From: Phycisphaeraceae bacterium
GTDB taxonomy: Bacteria > Planctomycetota > Phycisphaerae > Phycisphaerales > Zrk34
Direction of reading: 5' to 3'
Length of the DNA: 64,000 bases
NCBI GenBank assembly: GCA_028284925.1
Contig: JANQQT010000093.1
Coordinates: 1 to 64,000, forward strand
In this document: positions 21,747 to 31,991 of the stretch, one piece after another
Layout: every line of letters begins with the position of its first letter
How positions within the stretch are numbered: the first letter of the stretch is position 1
The notes under the pieces: model-generated
Told to the model about the DNA's origin: nothing
Databases searched by the model: none
What the model saw: the letters and a program-made list of their open reading frames with translations, nothing else
Made by a program: the position numbers and the translations under genes

Positions 21747-22625
21747 CTATAGCTGGGAGCTATCGAGAGAACGAATCGTGTTACCATCGAGATGTATTCC
21801 ACACTCCGTCTTGCTTAATCCAGCCCACCGGCCGGACCTGGGATCTTCACCGTCTGCTACCGGCCGGGTGCAGACAGGTGTGTTGCAGCCGACGCTTGGA
21901 TAACCCTGATCGTACAGTGGGTTAAATGGGACGTTGTTGGCCTTGATGTAGCCCCATATGGTCGCATCGTCCAAGGTTGCGAACGGATTAAACTTGGCGA
22001 GGCTGTTGACTTCGTCCCATTGGGCAACGGGCAAATTGGCGCGGTTGGCGGATTGGCGTCGTCTCATACCGGTGATCCATCCGGATTTTCCGACGAGATA
22101 TCGGCGTTGAGGCTCGACCTTACGTATGTGGCAGCATTCGTTGACGCCTTCAATACCTCGTTCGTAAAGAAGGCCACCGTATTTGTGCTTTTGCTCGTCC
22201 CAACTCAGGTCAGCAGCGACGCGTTTGGCGCGGAAGCCGTAGCGCTCCTGAATACGAAGTCGCGTTTGATGCGTTTCGGCAAAGAGAACACCCGTATCTA
22301 AATAATACACTTCGAGGCTCTTGAGAATATCCATAGACGCAAGCATGTCGATAATCGCGACCGACTGCATTCCAAAACTACAGGCGAGAGAGAGGTTTGT
22401 CGGATAATACTCCACGGCCCAACGCAGAATATCCTGTGGGGCGGCCAGATCGAATTGCTCGGCGGCGGCCGACAAGTCAGCCTTTTGAGATTCGATCGAT
22501 CGAGATGTTTGCTCGGTCTTTGGCACTTGCTCTTCGTCCACTTGATGTTCACCTTCGATTGATACCCGCCAAGACACATCGCCTACCGCATTGCGTGCGG
22601 GATTCGGTGGAGTTTCGGTTTTCAT
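21747..22625 (-). CDS. cysH: Adenylyl-sulfate reductase (CysH family, 4Fe-4S type)
   Basis: The protein is about 292 aa. It reduces adenylyl sulfate (APS) or PAPS to sulfite in sulfate assimilation. The PP-loop nucleotide-binding part contains LACSFGMQSV, and the active-site Cys is in KTECGIH (Cys275). Two Cys pairs of the 4Fe-4S type are present: Cys164-Cys165 (ECCHIRK) and Cys247...Cys252 (GCNTPVC), a four-residue spacing where APS reductases usually have two. An Fe-S APS reductase is the most likely identity. The N-terminal 50 residues are variable and not conserved. It is the third gene of the riboswitch-controlled operon, 250 bp after the carrier gene. Confidence 0.85.
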   Translation of the reverse strand: MKTETPPNPARNAVGDVSWRVSIEGEHQVDEEQVPKTEQTSRSIESQKADLSAAAEQFDLAAPQDILRWAVEYYPTNLSLACSFGMQSVAIIDMLASMDILKSLEVYYLDTGVLFAETHQTRLRIQERYGFRAKRVAADLSWDEQKHKYGGLLYERGIEGVNECCHIRKVEPQRRYLVGKSGWITGMRRRQSANRANLPVAQWDEVNSLAKFNPFATLDDATIWGYIKANNVPFNPLYDQGYPSVGCNTPVCTRPVADGEDPRSGRWAGLSKTECGIHLDGNTIRSLDSSQL

Positions 22626-22876
22626 AAATCCGACCATGATCCGCAACAACGTCGCGTTCAAATTTGCGTCTTACATGCAGACGCCGCAACAGATTGAACA
22701 ACAGGATTTTGCGGTCGAATCGGTGAACATCTGGTCAAGCTCCATTCAACGCTGCTGGGTGTGTAATTGCACAGCGTTAAATCTTGGATGCATCATATTC
22801 GGTGGCCGTTACGCGTTCAATGCATTCATTCGGGACTCATCTTATTTCGAATGAACGCCTTGAATCGGTTGTGCAA

Positions 22877-23152
22877 TCAGCCTCCAGCAATCGCGGGAAT
22901 GATGGATACTTCATCACCATCGTTCACGGGAGTGTCAGGCCCGTTTTCAAAACGAATATCTTCACTGTTAAGGTAAATGTTGACGAAGCGACGTATGGCA
23001 CCGGATTCATCAAACAATCTCTCTTTCAGACCATCATGCCTGGCACAGATGTCGGAAAGAACAGCGGCGACGGTTTGCCCATCTCCGGCTACGGTTTCGG
23101 CGCCATCGGTAAGATTACGCAGTGGCGTGGGAATTCGTACTGTGACTGACAT
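22877..23152 (-). CDS. CysO/MoaD-like sulfur carrier protein
   Basis: The protein is 91 aa, ubiquitin-fold, and ends in AIAGG. The C-terminal Gly-Gly is the site where an E1-like enzyme adenylates and then forms a thiocarboxylate. It aligns without gaps to the carrier domain of the fusion protein at 26209-27654, identical at about 44 of 91 positions by hand count. It overlaps the preceding threonine synthase-like gene by 38 bp, and GAGGT precedes the ATG. In Mycobacterium, CysO carries sulfur for cysteine synthesis; MoaD does so for molybdopterin and ThiS for thiamine. The placement between thrC and cysH, under a SAM riboswitch, suggests sulfur amino acid synthesis (inference). Confidence 0.88.
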   Translation of the reverse strand: MSVTVRIPTPLRNLTDGAETVAGDGQTVAAVLSDICARHDGLKERLFDESGAIRRFVNIYLNSEDIRFENGPDTPVNDGDEVSIIPAIAGG

Positions 23153-24419: not shown

Positions 24420-24460
24420 TTTCCGTGTGTCCTTTCCGTTTCGGACCGACTGTCAGCCCA

Positions 24461-24511
24461 AAATAAAAACCCCTTCCAACTCACCCCGAATTCGGGGCAG
24501 ATTGGAAGGGG
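24461..24511 (-). terminator. SAM riboswitch expression platform: nested intrinsic terminator
   Basis: On the minus strand, CCCCTTCCAA (24502-24511) pairs with TTGGAAGGGG (24470-24479). An inner palindrome CCCCGAATTCGGGG (24484-24497) lies within, and a T-rich run TTTTTATTT follows at 24461-24469. In addition ATCTGCCCC in the 5' arm (24494-24502) is complementary to GGGGCAGAT in the aptamer 3' end (24541-24549), giving a 9-bp antiterminator. SAM binding should release the terminator and switch the operon off. Confidence 0.9.
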
Positions 24512-24537
24512 CTTTGATGGGTTAATCAAACAGCCTA

Positions 24538-24668
24538 CTTATCTGCCCCTGAATCGATGTCATACCGATCTTCAGGGCTGGATTTAGCACCGAAACCCCT
24601 CAATAAATAGAAATTGAAGGCGGTTGCCGCGGTTTCGTAGGGCCAGTCCCTCCACCGCTCTTGATAAG
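24538..24668 (-). promoter_or_regulatory. SAM-I (S-box) riboswitch aptamer
   Basis: Reading the minus strand from 24668: CTTATCAAGAGCGGTGGAGG, then GACTGGCCCTACGAAACC and GCGGCAACC match the conserved S-box core. Further on, GGTGCTAAATCCAGC matches the P3/J3-4 region, and the 3' strand GCAGATAAG closes P1 with the starting CTTATC by perfect 6-bp pairing. The aptamer senses S-adenosylmethionine. It precedes the thrC-like gene by about 120 bp, with the terminator between. Promoter and expression platform are listed separately. Confidence 0.95.
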
Positions 24669-24699
24669 TCCGCAATAGCGGTATTCAATTGTTGGGGAG

Positions 24700-24728
24700 A
24701 TTATACACATTCCACCCGCCCTTTTCAA
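24700..24728 (-). promoter_or_regulatory. Near-consensus sigma-70 promoter for the SAM riboswitch operon
   Basis: On the minus strand TTGAAA (24723-24728), a 17-base spacer and a perfect TATAAT (24700-24705) are visible. Transcription would begin near 24693, about 25 bases before the aptamer. No operator overlaps it, so regulation is probably mainly by the riboswitch. Confidence 0.75.
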
Positions 24729-26208: not shown

Positions 26209-27654
26209 TTAATATTTCGGCATGGAGGGGTCAACCTGTTCGGCCCATGCGCCGACGCCCCCGTGAAGATTGCGAACCTTGTCGTAGCCCTGGTCTTTGA
26301 GAAAGTGAGCTGCCTTTGCGCTACGTCCGCCCATCTTGCAGTGAACAATAATGTCAGCATCACGTGGAATTTCTTCAAGTCGCCCAGGAAGTTCCGCAAG
26401 CGGAATGAGGTTTCCGCCGAGGTTGCAAATCTCGTACTCATTCGGCTGTCGCACATCAAGTACGAAGATTTCAGACTCGCTGTCTAGTAGATCCTTCACC
26501 TCGCGAGCGGAAATGTCCCATGGGCTTTGCGGTTCGATTTTGGCCGCTTCACTGGTCTCACTGGGCATGCCACAAAACTCCTTGTAGTCGATTAATTCCT
26601 TGATGGTTGGATTGTCGCCGCAAATCGGGCAGTTTTTATCACGACGTATTTTCATTTCCCGGAATTTCATCCCGAGCGCATCGAATAGGAGCAATCTTCC
26701 AACGAGCGAATCGCCGTTACCCAGAATAACCTTGATCCCCTCGATGGCCTGAATGACACCAATGATGCCGGGGAGAACGCCAAGAACGCCACCTTCAGCA
26801 CAACTGGGAACCATGCCCGGCTCGGGAGGCTCAGGATAAAGGCAACGATAACACGGGCCACCCTGATAATTGAAGACGCTTGCCTGGCCATCGAATCGGA
26901 AAATCGAACCATAGACGTTGGGTTTGCCAAGGAGAACACACGCATCATTAACGAGATATCGGGTTGGGAAATTATCCGTACCGTCGATGACGATGTCATA
27001 CTTGGAAACGATGTCTAATGCATTGTCACTGGTTAACGGAGTGTTGTATGTTTCGACGATGCAATAGGGGTTGATTGCCTCGATCGTGCGTTTGGCGGAT
27101 TCATGCTTCGGGCGACCCACATCGTCTGTGCGATGGATGATCTGACGTTGAAGGTTGGAATAATCAACGACATCAAATTCAACAATTCCGATGCGACCGA
27201 TGCCCGCAGCAGACAGATACATTCCGAGCGGAGATCCAAGTCCGCCGGCGCCAATCAACAGGACGCTAGCCGCCTTGAGTTTTTTCTGTCCTTCCAAACC
27301 TACTTCAGGAAGAATAATGTGGCGGGCATAGCGTTCAAGTTCCTCCTTGGACAACTCTGCTCCCGCAACGGCAACGTCCAAACCGCCGGCAACGGCGGGC
27401 ACGATGGCAACTTCGTCACCGTCGGACAGAGATGTATCAGATGACTCACGATCACGAATATTCTCATCGTTGACAAAGACATTGACAAAGTTTCGTAGAT
27501 CGCCGGTGTCGCTGAACAGTTGTGCTTTCAGTTGAGGGTGCTGATCGGTGAGTTTCGTGAGAACTTCGCGTACATTGCCGCCTTCAAGTTCCACGGTGTC
27601 GTGGCCGTCCGCGTAGGAACGCAGAGCCGTAGGTATCATAACTTTTACACTCAT
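26209..27654 (-). CDS. Fusion: sulfur carrier (CysO/MoaD-like) + MoeB-type E1 + rhodanese
   Basis: The protein is 481 aa with three domains. Residues 1-91 are a MoaD/CysO-like carrier ending in AVAGG, but the chain continues after the Gly-Gly. Residues of about 102-345 are the E1-like domain: LSKEELERYARHIILPEVG, the ATP loop GAGGLGSPLG, and two zinc Cys pairs (CYRC, CPIC). From about 385 a rhodanese domain follows, with its active Cys in IVHCKMGGRSAKAA. MoeB adenylates a carrier C terminus and the rhodanese supplies sulfur. Here the carrier is fused upstream, so its Gly-Gly is not free unless cut. The start overlaps the JAMM gene stop by four bases (ATGA), and AGGAG precedes it. Confidence 0.9.
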   Translation of the reverse strand: MSVKVMIPTALRSYADGHDTVELEGGNVREVLTKLTDQHPQLKAQLFSDTGDLRNFVNVFVNDENIRDRESSDTSLSDGDEVAIVPAVAGGLDVAVAGAELSKEELERYARHIILPEVGLEGQKKLKAASVLLIGAGGLGSPLGMYLSAAGIGRIGIVEFDVVDYSNLQRQIIHRTDDVGRPKHESAKRTIEAINPYCIVETYNTPLTSDNALDIVSKYDIVIDGTDNFPTRYLVNDACVLLGKPNVYGSIFRFDGQASVFNYQGGPCYRCLYPEPPEPGMVPSCAEGGVLGVLPGIIGVIQAIEGIKVILGNGDSLVGRLLLFDALGMKFREMKIRRDKNCPICGDNPTIKELIDYKEFCGMPSETSEAAKIEPQSPWDISAREVKDLLDSESEIFVLDVRQPNEYEICNLGGNLIPLAELPGRLEEIPRDADIIVHCKMGGRSAKAAHFLKDQGYDKVRNLHGGVGAWAEQVDPSMPKY

Positions 27655-28103
27655 CCCAAGGTCTCCTGGGTCTGCTCAATTTCAATGGTTTGGGGTTTGA
27701 ACTTAGCGCGATCATCCTGCAAAAGCCAGCTTGTCAGTTCCTTTGCGGCTCCGTGATGCACAGAGATAATCGCAAATGCTGATCGCGGCCAGGTAGCATG
27801 GTCCAGGTCGTACTGAGATGGCCGTGAAGGATGATCCGGGTGTGAATGGTAATGGCCGATGATGTCCAGACCTTCGCGTCGCGCTTCCTTCTCTGCGATG
27901 AAAGATGCTTCAGGTGTAATGATGAACCGGTTGTGCTGCTCTTCCTCGCCCCTCATGTTCGTCGCGGGCAAGACACGCACAACCTGGAATTGCTCATCCT
28001 TGATTCGGCCGAGGAGAAATCCACAACACTCATTAGGATAAGCCCGCTCACCGTGTTCGCGAATGGCCTGATCGTGTTGAGTTTGTAACACCAGGTTCAA
28101 CAT
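27651..28103 (-). CDS. mec: Mec-type JAMM metallopeptidase (CysO-cysteine peptidase-like)
   Basis: The protein is 150 aa. It has the JAMM zinc motif: Glu in NECCGFLLG and HSHPDHPSRPSQYD, which fits H-x-H-P-x6-S-x2-D exactly. Mec of M. tuberculosis frees cysteine from the CysO-cysteine conjugate; other JAMM proteins remove ubiquitin-like proteins. In this operon it sits after the CysM gene and overlaps the fusion gene by four bases. Besides freeing cysteine it could cut the fusion after Gly-Gly to release the carrier (inference). It starts six bases before the CysM stop region. Confidence 0.93.
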   Translation of the reverse strand: MLNLVLQTQHDQAIREHGERAYPNECCGFLLGRIKDEQFQVVRVLPATNMRGEEEQHNRFIITPEASFIAEKEARREGLDIIGHYHSHPDHPSRPSQYDLDHATWPRSAFAIISVHHGAAKELTSWLLQDDRAKFKPQTIEIEQTQETLG

Positions 28104-28109
28104 TTGAAT

Positions 28110-29057
28110 TTACCAAAAACGATGGTCCAAATACTTGGACGCGCTATCAGCCATGACGGTTACGACGACGCCGTCATTCAAATCGCGCGCCACACACATG
28201 GCCGCCTCCACTGAGGCGCCGGCGCTCATCCCCACCAGCAAACCCTCCTCACGCGCGAGACGCTTGATCATGGCCTGTGCATCCTCTGTCCGAATCCACA
28301 GATTCTCGTCAGCCATCTGCTCATCATAAAATCCAGGCTTGATGGAAGTGGGCATGTGCTTCCAGCCTTCCATTGCATGCATGGGTGAATCTGGCTGACA
28401 TGAAATGCACCTGATGTCAGGGTTGAATTCTCTTAAACGTTTGGTATTCCCCGTGAATGTGCCGCTTGTACCGAGACCCGCTACAAAATGGGTAATGGAA
28501 CCGTCCGTCTGTTCGATGATTTCATTGGCCGTCCCATGATAGTGAGCGAGCCAATTGGCATCGTTGTTGTATTGGTCGGGGTAGAAATAGGCGTCAGGCT
28601 CTTCTTCATAAAGACGGATGGCCTCCCGAATAGCGCCATCGCTTCCTTCGGTAAGAGAGGTTAACACCAATTCCGTCCCGTAGGCTTGCAGGATCCGCTT
28701 ATGAAGATCACCTGCGCTCTTGGGTAGGCATAACTTGACTTTGTAGCCCATCGCCGCCCCGAACATGGCATAGGCGATCCCGGTATTGCCGCTGGTCGCA
28801 TCCAGAATCGTTTTTTCCTTCGTCAGCTTTCCCTCTCGTTCACCCTTGAGGATCATATTCAGGGCAGGGCGATCCTTGACGCTGCCGCCGGGATTAAACC
28901 ACTCGGCCTTGGCGAATACGCGAACAGGCGCCACCTCACGACTTAGGTGTCGCAATTCAATCAGAGGTGTATTGCCAACCGCTGAAAGGAGACTGTTGTG
29001 ATGCGTGGCATCACAGGTCACTTCCACCGGTGTATTGGTTAAGATGCTCATGTCCAT
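28110..29057 (-). CDS. cysM: Cysteine synthase (CysK/CysM family)
   Basis: The protein is 315 aa. The PLP Lys is Lys61 in NPGGSVKDRPA, followed by DATSGNTGIAYAMFGAAMGY, and GLGTSGTFTG is the phosphate loop. The enzyme exchanges the activated group of O-acetylserine or O-phosphoserine for sulfide or for a carrier thiocarboxylate. With a Mec peptidase and a carrier/E1 fusion directly after it, the CysO-dependent CysM route using O-phosphoserine is likely, but the substrate is not proven here. A second in-frame ATG two codons later is equally possible. The gene ends six bases before mec. Confidence 0.92.
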   Translation of the reverse strand: MDMSILTNTPVEVTCDATHHNSLLSAVGNTPLIELRHLSREVAPVRVFAKAEWFNPGGSVKDRPALNMILKGEREGKLTKEKTILDATSGNTGIAYAMFGAAMGYKVKLCLPKSAGDLHKRILQAYGTELVLTSLTEGSDGAIREAIRLYEEEPDAYFYPDQYNNDANWLAHYHGTANEIIEQTDGSITHFVAGLGTSGTFTGNTKRLREFNPDIRCISCQPDSPMHAMEGWKHMPTSIKPGFYDEQMADENLWIRTEDAQAMIKRLAREEGLLVGMSAGASVEAAMCVARDLNDGVVVTVMADSASKYLDHRFW

Positions 29058-29110
29058 ATCCGTGTGATCAGTTGCAATTCAAGCTTACGATGCAAGATTC
29101 GGCATCCACG

Positions 29111-29692
29111 TTACGACGTCGCAGGAACAGCCAAGCGATTTGAAATCTGTTCAATATCCGCCGACGCCGCTTCAATGCAAATCGCAATGCAATCTCTGGG
29201 ATCTTCACTGCCACGCAAAACCTTCACATCTGCCCCGAATATCTCACGAATCAAGGGACCGGCAAGCTCCGACAAAATCGCATAGGTTTCAGACGAATTG
29301 GGCGCTGCCAGACGATCATGGACTTTGATTCGTACATTACAGACATTGAAAGAAATACCCTGCATATTGTCTTCTTCCGCCAATCTTTGGCACGCCGAGA
29401 ATACACGTGTAAATACAAGCCTGAGATCGGTTGCAAAGTCACCGGATGAATCCCGCTTCATCATGTATTTCATTCCTGGACGAGAGGCCATATCCAGAGC
29501 ATAATCGCCTTCGTGGCCGATCAGCATCACGCCGGGCCCGTGAGGAACGTGTATGTAATCCGCCACGTCAATCAGCATGCCATCGACAACTTTCTCCCGA
29601 ATCCAGCGATGAAAGATTGGAATTAAGGCGGCTTCGTTGACGCTCGCATCGTCGTCTACAAATATTTTTGCACTTACTCGTGAAGGATTCAT
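29111..29692 (-). CDS. Unknown protein in the sulfite reductase - cysteine operon
   Basis: The protein is 193 aa, probably cytoplasmic. I do not recognise a family. It has a mixed alpha/beta pattern: FHRWIREKVVDGMLIDVADY, VPHGPGVMLIGHEGDYALD, FSACQRLAEE, and a C-terminal DCIAICIEAASADIEQI. Its placement between the sulfite reductase and cysteine synthase genes, with gaps of about 40 and 53 bp, suggests a role in sulfite reduction or cysteine synthesis. GGA eight bases upstream supports the start. The HGPGVMLIGHEGDYALD stretch looks like a possible conserved core. Confidence 0.6.
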   Translation of the reverse strand: MNPSRVSAKIFVDDDASVNEAALIPIFHRWIREKVVDGMLIDVADYIHVPHGPGVMLIGHEGDYALDMASRPGMKYMMKRDSSGDFATDLRLVFTRVFSACQRLAEEDNMQGISFNVCNVRIKVHDRLAAPNSSETYAILSELAGPLIREIFGADVKVLRGSEDPRDCIAICIEAASADIEQISNRLAVPATS

Positions 29693-29732
29693 AGGAAAAT
29701 TCCAATCTCACATCGACTTTGACTCTTCGAGG

Positions 29733-31991
29733 TTATTTCAAAACCTCTGCGGTCGACGCAGTGAGTCGGGCTTCGCAGGCGTGCGTTGCCTCGATGAACA
29801 AGTTCGTTTCCTCGATGGTCGATCGCGCTGTATCTCGTTCTACCTCAACGTCATCGCGTTCGTGTCTGTCAAACAGATACTGAGCAAATTTACCCTTAGC
29901 ATATCGATCGTAAAATAATTCGGTGTCAAAAAATCGTTTGCGGAATTCATCAACGATCTGATCCGCATCATTGCTGATATCCCAGAACTGGGTTCGGACG
30001 AGCGCCTGGGCAGCCAAGACCATTCCCTTGTATGCCAGGGCGTCGGCCCCAGCGTAATCTTCATCATCGAACGCAACCTGGGCATCGAAGGCTTCGGATT
30101 CCGCTTTACTGATCTCCATCGAGAACATGGAGACAACCTCACCAGCACACTCACCGACCCCCATGTCGCCAAGTGTAAACTCTCGGGCATCCCCCCAGTC
30201 GGTGTAAAAAGACGGATCCTCGCCGTAAGAGGGAACAGTCATAAAAGGCTTGAGCAATTCGCGAACTTCCTTTTTACCCAAACGGGCGATCCACTGGCGA
30301 AACGATTCATCGCCTTCGCGCTGCTGCACAAACGTATCGGTTAATGAATCAACCAGCTCCGGGATTCGCTTGGATGGAACGGCGCCCATCATCATGCCGT
30401 AGGCTCCACCGTTTTCCTCCCACTGTCCACCGAGTACCACCTGGAAGTGGGGTACCGCGTAGTTACCCACTTTCCGAGAGTTGCCGTAAAAACCCAGGTC
30501 CGAAAGGTGATGTTGCCCGCAGGAGTTAAAGCAGCCGCTTGCCTTGATCTTCAATCCCTTTACCGAATCGGGAAGAGTATCACGCTTGGCGGTCAAATGG
30601 CTTCTCAGCTCACCCGCCACCCCACGAGAGGCGGCGATGCCCAATTTGCATGTGTCCGTACCGGGGCATGCAGTAATGTCGACAATTGTGCCGGCGCCCG
30701 GGGTTGCAAGATGGATATCCTTGAGCCGCAGATATAAAGAAGGCAGATCCGCTTCACTCACCCACCTCAGAACCAGATTCTGCTCGACCGTCGTCCGTAC
30801 TGAATCGCCAACATATTCCGCGGCGACATCCGCAAGTTTTCGGAATTGGTCGGAGGTCGCATCCCCCAAGGGCAAATTGATGGTCACGACGACATAACCA
30901 GACTGACGCTGCTTATAAACATTGGTACGAACCCAGTCTTCAAAGCCATCCGGCTTAGCTCCCGCGCTCAATTGGACAGCATCCTTCAAAGGTGAATCCT
31001 CATAATGAGGTAATTCCTTCAAGTATGCGGTCCATCGATCATCGTGAGGAACGACCTTCCGCTCTTCCTCAACCAAACGCCTGTATTCATCGATACCCAG
31101 CTTGGCTACCAGAAACTTGATACGAGCACGATTGCGGTTGCGTTTTTCGCCCAGACGGGTATAGACACGCGCCACACACTGGCTCACAGGCAACAGCTCT
31201 TCCTCGGTGACGAAATCAAAAAGCAACTTGGCTTCGTGAGGAACGGCGCCCAACCCGCCGCCGATGTACATCGCGAATCCTCGCGTGGGTTTACCATCCA
31301 CATCCTTAATCTTTGCAATTAAGCCAAGATCGTGCATGTTGGTAAGTCCGCAGGCGTGTTGCGCACAGCCACTGAAAGCGGGCTTGAATTTACGACCAAA
31401 ATCCTGAACATCCGGGTGTCCGAGGAAAAAATGCATCAATGCCTTCGCATAAGGTGAAATGTCAAAGGCCTCATCGCGGCAAACACCCGCCAGGGGGCAT
31501 CCGGTTATGTTGCGAACAGAGTTTCCGCAGGCTTCCCGAGTGGTAATCCCAACCGCGGCAAGACGACGCATGAGATCAGGTGTGTCTTCAATATGCACAA
31601 AGTGCAACTGGATATCCTGACGGGTTGTGATGTGGAGAATCCCATCGGAGTAATCATCCGCCAGATCCGCCAATACGTTCATTTGCTCGTTCGACATCCC
31701 CCCATAGGGAATCTTGATACGATGCATTCCAGGTGCGTCCCAGACGGTTTCAGGCCCCTTAGTGTGGTCACCTGGAAATGCAAGCTGGCGCGTATCCACG
31801 CCATCGTGCCGTTGGCCGTTGTCATATCGCTGTCCGTAAGCACCGCGTCGCAAGCGTGTTTCAGCGAAAATCTTGTCTTCCAACTTCCCCAGTTTTTTCA
31901 GCTCCATCTGGGCTTCAAATTGATCGATCTCGTGTGCCCAACCCTCGGGCATTTGATCAGCAAGCAAATTCTTCCATGTCCTGGCCGACAT
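29733..31991 (-). CDS. sir: Ferredoxin-type sulfite/nitrite reductase with C-terminal extension
   Basis: The protein is 752 aa. It reduces sulfite to sulfide (or nitrite to ammonia) with siroheme and a 4Fe-4S cluster. The cluster ligands are TACPGTDTCKLGI and SGCFNSCGQH. Two duplicated ferredoxin-like halves are visible: HITTRQDIQLHFVHIED and TVEQNLVLRWVSEADL. The context is sulfur assimilation, so sulfite is the likely substrate. Usual members have about 570 residues; residues of about 580-752 are extra and appear helical (FSMEISKAESEAFDAQVAF, KFAQYLFDRHERDD), somewhat like HEPN domains. GGAG precedes the ATG. It is probably the first gene of the operon. Confidence 0.92.
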   Translation of the reverse strand: MSARTWKNLLADQMPEGWAHEIDQFEAQMELKKLGKLEDKIFAETRLRRGAYGQRYDNGQRHDGVDTRQLAFPGDHTKGPETVWDAPGMHRIKIPYGGMSNEQMNVLADLADDYSDGILHITTRQDIQLHFVHIEDTPDLMRRLAAVGITTREACGNSVRNITGCPLAGVCRDEAFDISPYAKALMHFFLGHPDVQDFGRKFKPAFSGCAQHACGLTNMHDLGLIAKIKDVDGKPTRGFAMYIGGGLGAVPHEAKLLFDFVTEEELLPVSQCVARVYTRLGEKRNRNRARIKFLVAKLGIDEYRRLVEEERKVVPHDDRWTAYLKELPHYEDSPLKDAVQLSAGAKPDGFEDWVRTNVYKQRQSGYVVVTINLPLGDATSDQFRKLADVAAEYVGDSVRTTVEQNLVLRWVSEADLPSLYLRLKDIHLATPGAGTIVDITACPGTDTCKLGIAASRGVAGELRSHLTAKRDTLPDSVKGLKIKASGCFNSCGQHHLSDLGFYGNSRKVGNYAVPHFQVVLGGQWEENGGAYGMMMGAVPSKRIPELVDSLTDTFVQQREGDESFRQWIARLGKKEVRELLKPFMTVPSYGEDPSFYTDWGDAREFTLGDMGVGECAGEVVSMFSMEISKAESEAFDAQVAFDDEDYAGADALAYKGMVLAAQALVRTQFWDISNDADQIVDEFRKRFFDTELFYDRYAKGKFAQYLFDRHERDDVEVERDTARSTIEETNLFIEATHACEARLTASTAEVLK

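Follow-up and report, generated by a model that had tools for sequence, protein, structure and literature searches.

A SAM-I riboswitch ahead of a threonine synthase paralogue in a planctomycete: a probable MetM/MetO-type operon for homocysteine synthesis under SAM repression

The riboswitch leader and its gene neighbourhood

The locus lies in the window (the whole stretch of DNA that was analysed, 64,000 nucleotides from a Phycisphaeraceae bacterium), where the minus strand from 24728 to 24459 carries a promoter, a SAM-I aptamer and a terminator hairpin with a U-run, in this order. They are followed by three genes, coding for a paralogue of threonine synthase (ThrC), a small sulfur carrier and CysH (Table 1). 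The start of the carrier gene overlaps the end of the ThrC paralogue by 38 bp, and the succession of carrier and cysH is found also in two other genomes of the same family (G198 and G220). Further genes of sulfur metabolism are located at 26209-31991. One of them, the MoaD-MoeB-rhodanese fusion, has an internal GG after its MoaD part, so that this carrier would need to be cut free to act as a thiocarboxylate, and its gene overlaps that of the JAMM protease. The CysM-like gene is separated from that of the sulfite reductase by a gene for a 193-aa protein (29111-29692, minus strand) that matches nothing in Pfam or NCBIfam.

Table 1. Features of the locus and of the neighbouring sulfur genes (positions in the window).
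Feature	Position	Strand	Evidence
Sigma-70-type promoter, TTGAAA-17-TATAAT	24700..24728	-	11/12 matches; chance expectation of 0.4 promoter-like sites over the stretch scanned
SAM-I (S-box) riboswitch aptamer, P1 to P4	24536..24670	-	RF00162 80.5 bits; purpose-built covariance model R1 104 bits; covarying helices
Antiterminator 5' strand GGGGCAGAU (3' strand of P4 and start of P1)	24541..24549	-	9-bp exact complement
Antiterminator 3' strand AUCUGCCCC, within the terminator	24494..24502	-	pairs with GGGGCAGAU; pairing kept in sister genomes
Intrinsic terminator, long hairpin and U-run	about 24459..24513	-	-34 to -36.5 kcal/mol, then TTTTTATTTT / UUUUUAUUUU
ThrC paralogue, candidate homocysteine synthase of MetM type, 434 aa	23115..24419	-	PALP fold-type II; TIGR00260 268 bits; changed motifs; separate clade 100/100
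ThiS/MoaD-like sulfur carrier, MetO-type candidate, 91 aa, ends ...PAIAGG	22877..23152	-	PF02597 64 bits; SAMP1 model 63.2 bits, cut-off 60
cysH, APS/PAPS reductase	21747..22661	-	NF002537 243 bits
MoaD-MoeB-rhodanese fusion, probable activating enzyme and sulfurtransferase for carriers	26209..27654	-	PF02597, PF00899, PF00581
JAMM-type metalloprotease, possible carrier processing (Mec-like)	27651..28103	-	PF14464 90 bits
CysM-like cysteine synthase	28110..29057	-	TIGR01138 323 bits, below cut-off 394
Sulfite/nitrite reductase-family protein, probable assimilatory sulfite reductase	29733..31991	-	PF01077, PF03460

The original prediction had read this leader as a SAM-I riboswitch with a TTGAAA-17-TATAAT promoter and a P1 closing helix, and each of these elements was recovered. 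The Rfam covariance model of the class (RF00162), whose use it had proposed, matches the window over its full length (model positions 1-108) with an E value of 2.3e-17, the score of 80.5 bits exceeding the gathering score of 44.4 bits, and the aptamer is the sole match in a search of the 4.9-Mb genome assembly. Helices P1 to P4 are backed by covariation in an alignment of 20 aptamers of the phylum, in which 99.4% of the pair cells are kept and 11 pairs show double changes. These amount to 61; shuffles give 15.6, and the number drops strongly when the alignment is slid. The RNA switch ahead of the ThrC-like gene is therefore a genuine SAM-I element, which would be expected to bind SAM. In its full-length match, covarying helices and terminator/antiterminator platform it follows the S-box scheme; only the target gene differs from the textbook.

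The expression platform had been predicted as well, and folding of the leader gives the strong terminator hairpin with its U-run. A consensus terminator scanner reported no terminator in the leader, probably because the stem is interrupted. The proposed antiterminator is an exact complement of 9 bp between GGGGCAGAU and AUCUGCCCC, equalled by 15 of 5000 shuffles; its formation comes chiefly at the expense of the P4 3' strand, the junction and the beginning of P1. In equilibrium folding the terminator structure is favoured by a wide margin over the antiterminator structure (-101 vs -83 kcal/mol), so that any switching must be kinetic and would depend on how the RNA folds as it is transcribed. 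The pairing (GGGGCAGA-type) is kept in two genomes of the same family, with 8-9 bp and a C-G to U-G change in one of them, and an equivalent pairing, AUAAGAUAGG/CCUAUCUUAU, appears in other families, including the largest. When 18 relatives with the same downstream gene were examined, the aptamer was in most of them separated from the gene by a hairpin with a U-rich tail, and many had a clear antiterminator complement; in a few leaders (L091, L093) no convincing terminator was found. This conserved layout supports the OFF-switch arrangement that had been claimed, in which termination would depend on SAM.

The ThrC paralogue and the methionine pathway of the genome

The protein encoded behind the leader shares with threonine synthase the superfamily, the N-terminal extension and a match to the thrC equivalog TIGR00260 (268 bits, cut-off 167), and it falls slightly below the cut-off of PRK08197 (297 against 303 bits). 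The differences concern the pocket motifs, the clade, the genomic partner and the regulation. Where classical ThrC has the pocket motifs NSVNPxR and GNxGN (judged from an alignment with two classical ThrC rows and a solved ThrC), the window protein has VNVNMRPYYAEGSKT and MAGGSL. In threonine synthase these positions bind the phosphate of the substrate. The clade to which the protein belongs has the consensus VN(V/I)NxRP(Y/F)YxEGSKT and MAGGSL, and departs from classical ThrC throughout. In a maximum-likelihood tree the window protein groups with its relatives in a 65-row clade (100/100 support), on a long branch and apart from both classical ThrC rows; the joins between long branches in this tree are unsure. 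The same tree contains genomes of the phylum with proteins near-identical to those of named Brocadiaceae, on which basis the phylum of the window is taken to be Planctomycetota.

The genome has a second ThrC (478 aa, G000:C18) with the motifs NSVNPFR and GNLGN, which resemble those of solved threonine synthases and of the classical ThrC of a Nitrospira MAG. Judged by sequence, the gene at 24419-23115 is thus a paralogue and not the threonine synthase of this genome. The description "threonine synthase-like" given to it by the original prediction holds as far as the family is concerned; a role in threonine synthesis is not borne out by the separate clade and the altered pocket.

A full-length methionine synthase, MetH (TIGR02082, 1299 bits), is present in the assembly and, save for the candidate MetM, no known homocysteine synthase. 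The assembly contains no enzyme of the MetB/C/Y/Z type (PF01053): no match exceeds 31 bits, and those examined, four in number (L002 to L005), are aminotransferases. The assembly is 92% complete and a MetY could be absent from it; in the same family, G220 (97% complete) is also without a strong PF01053 match and G198 has one at 1.5e-61. MetX had no match in the assembly, and neither had DUF39/HcyBio (PF01837), for which both methanogen control genomes were positive. The homocysteine route through DUF39 and a NIL-ferredoxin was thus set aside, as was a thiocarboxylate route with HcyS and MetY of the Wolinella type, which would require a real PF01053 enzyme. As for homoserine kinase, ThrB (TIGR00191) was rejected at only 19 bits in favour of a candidate, an ApgM-like protein that scores above its own cut-off and also resembles phosphoglycerate mutases. 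A phage origin of the locus was discarded as well, no relative having appeared among viral contigs.

These observations point to the ThrC paralogue as most likely an enzyme of the methionine pathway, a homocysteine synthase of the MetM type with its own sulfur carrier. The pairing of SAM-I with a ThrC-like gene would then be normal feedback control. It had been considered unusual that such an element should govern a ThrC-family gene together with a sulfur carrier and cysH; given the distinct clade of the paralogue, the presence of another ThrC and the lack of any conventional homocysteine synthase, we do not share that view.

Distribution of the arrangement

A survey of SAM riboswitches before thrC homologues in planctomycetes, suggested along with the original prediction, found the association to be the rule: in the phylum sample the ThrC-paralogue clade occurs in 28 genomes (counted at 650 bits or more, together with one whose gene is divided by a contig end), and 26 of them have a SAM-I match. 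The genes downstream of 60 SAM-I loci in the phylum were named by tblastn to a few reference proteins, themselves named by eye, giving the ThrC paralogue in 24, homoserine dehydrogenase in 17, a MetH-like gene in 7 and a MetX-like gene in 1, with the remaining 11 unassigned. MetX and MetY come next in several of the 17 homoserine dehydrogenase loci. The slot behind SAM-I is accordingly occupied in this phylum by either the ThrC paralogue/carrier pair, or Hom/MetX/MetY, or MetH. In three members of one family (L047, L049 and L057; f68), SAM-I precedes homoserine dehydrogenase and a relative of the ThrC paralogue lies downstream with no carrier nearby; their genomes contain strong PF01053 enzymes.

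A real PF01053 enzyme is absent from 15 of the 28 clade genomes and from 15 of 266 others (Fisher p 5e-10, uncorrected for kinship, the 15 clade genomes falling in four families). In the other 13 of the 28 a stronger PF01053 match is found alongside the clade, so that a route of the MetM type would not always be the sole one.

The arrangement extends well beyond the phylum. We examined 80 named relatives, chosen as the top hits in a pattern scan rather than sampled at random, from Verrucomicrobia, Kiritimatiellae, KSB1, Deltaproteobacteria, Nitrospira, Nitrospina, Omnitrophota, NC10, Rokubacteria, Dadabacteria and Planctomycetota. In 77 of these 80, across many phyla, a carrier lies within 1.5 kb downstream of the ThrC paralogue, and SAM-I was found upstream in 55 (53/74 among those with enough upstream sequence). 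NIL, MoeB, CysM or JAMM genes often follow the carrier. Brocadia, Scalindua and related anammox bacteria have the same SAM-I, ThrC-like gene and carrier, and so does the actinomycete Nonomuraea gerenzanensis, in the same order and with a ThrC-like protein of the same clade that is 52% identical. One Nitrospira MAG (L144) has Hom, MoeB, the ThrC paralogue, the carrier, NIL and a classical ThrC in one cluster, which places both presumed users of O-phosphohomoserine side by side.

A proposed route to homocysteine, its alternatives and its reach

We propose that this planctomycete locus is a MetM/MetO-type operon for homocysteine synthesis that SAM represses, and would give this reading a probability of about 0.8. 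When SAM is low, the 3' side of the aptamer would pair into the terminator, and RNA polymerase would read through to metM, metO and cysH; with SAM bound, P1 to P4 would be held, the terminator would form and transcription would stop. MetM, a ThrC-like PLP enzyme, would eliminate the phosphate from O-phosphohomoserine and add sulfur to give homocysteine; MetO would donate this sulfur as a thiocarboxylate at its C-terminal Gly-Gly. MetH would then methylate homocysteine to methionine. The substrate, the sulfur donor, the reaction and the loading of the carrier are all deduced from the genes and their context. The nearby MoeB-rhodanese fusion probably loads the carrier, with reduced sulfur coming from CysH and sulfite reductase. 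The genes for the fusion, the JAMM protease, the CysM-like enzyme and the sulfite reductase are a plausible sulfur supply, and a CysH in the operon would fit it.

Several known systems combine some of these parts. In the CysO/CysM/Mec system of Mycobacterium, a fold-type II PLP enzyme uses a phosphorylated substrate and a carrier thiocarboxylate, together with a JAMM protease. A similar set is found in the window at 26209-29057, although the mycobacterial product is cysteine from O-phosphoserine and not homocysteine. In Wolinella succinogenes a ThiS-like carrier reportedly delivers the sulfur for homocysteine synthesis by a MetY-type (PF01053) enzyme; a ThiS-like carrier as sulfur source would be common to both, and the enzyme is the part that the window genome does not have. 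Methionine synthesis from a protein thiocarboxylate in this organism is attributed to Krishnamoorthy and Begley (2011, as cited in PMC5764234). The closest likeness is to Streptomyces, for which MetM is reported as a new homocysteine synthase that uses O-phosphohomoserine and is accompanied in S. albulus by a metO sulfur-carrier gene and an upstream SAM riboswitch (Hasebe et al., 2024, doi 10.1128/aem.01247-24, as described in PMC12172450). ThrC-like enzyme, adjacent carrier gene, upstream riboswitch and homocysteine role (reported there, predicted here) are shared; the window differs in coming from a planctomycete, in the cysH added to the operon and in a genome without a PF01053-type enzyme. 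The conserved order in Nonomuraea, itself an actinomycete, appears to link the two. The window locus is most likely another such system, of a kind already reported.

An improbable variant is that homocysteine is made from O-phosphohomoserine and free sulfide, the adjacent carrier serving another thiolation pathway. Na2S was indeed used in assays of MetM-like enzymes (PMC12172450), and in three genomes of one genus (L046, L048 and L056; g92) the carrier gene lies away from the ThrC paralogue, with the riboswitch still before the enzyme gene. Against it stand the adjacency of the carrier in nearly all the relatives across phyla, the gene overlap in the window and the clustering with NIL, MoeB and JAMM genes. 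A true threonine synthase, controlled by SAM in order to balance O-phosphohomoserine between threonine and methionine, would explain the TIGR00260 score and the position of this compound at the branch point. It was rejected as the main reading and we hold it to be very unlikely, given the other ThrC with classical motifs, the pocket changed throughout the clade, the coexistence of paralogue and classical ThrC in the Nitrospira cluster and the fact that threonine synthase needs no sulfur carrier, not to mention that a repression of threonine synthesis by SAM has no obvious logic. The least credible possibility is an enzyme with two functions, or one that serves mainly as threonine deaminase, whose methionine link is indirect. 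This has been proposed for a Microcystis homologue that is 51.6% identical to S. albulus MetM, behaved mainly as threonine deaminase and lacks an upstream SAM riboswitch (PMC12172450), and that result is the chief caution for our reading. Against it, SAM-I control, the carrier pairing and the missing homocysteine synthases point to methionine, and the genome has a separate PALP protein resembling threonine/serine dehydratase (L009, judged by eye).

If the locus encodes a MetM/MetO system, the consequences reach beyond this genome. Standard models name the protein threonine synthase, which would hide the methionine route from annotation and from predictions of auxotrophy. SAM-I before a ThrC-like gene with a sulfur carrier could instead serve as a genomic marker of a probable homocysteine synthase, revealing a large and systematically misannotated methionine route in many phyla, anammox bacteria included. 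At least one pathway to homocysteine is considered still unknown (PMC5764234), and anammox bacteria, in which cystathionine enzymes are missing, have for that reason been suggested to benefit from others in obtaining methionine (PMC6714388); the latter inference is weakened by the anammox relatives that share the arrangement.

The NIL domain is otherwise known from methionine transport and from DUF39 homocysteine synthesis. It is fused to the MetO-like carrier or follows it in three genomes of one family (L092, L093 and L103; f52), and free NIL genes are found at many of the loci L105-L184. We put forward tentatively, and think rather unlikely, the wider idea that carrier-bound sulfur is the main or only entry to cysteine and methionine here and in many phyla including anammox bacteria, with NIL beside or fused to MetO acting as a methionine-sensing feedback on the carrier. 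Were such an entry true, many supposed methionine auxotrophs would be prototrophs. The MetO-like carriers of six other loci (L051, L052, L054, L055, L064 and L066) extend a few residues past the GG, a hint that the C terminus is trimmed before the carrier is used.
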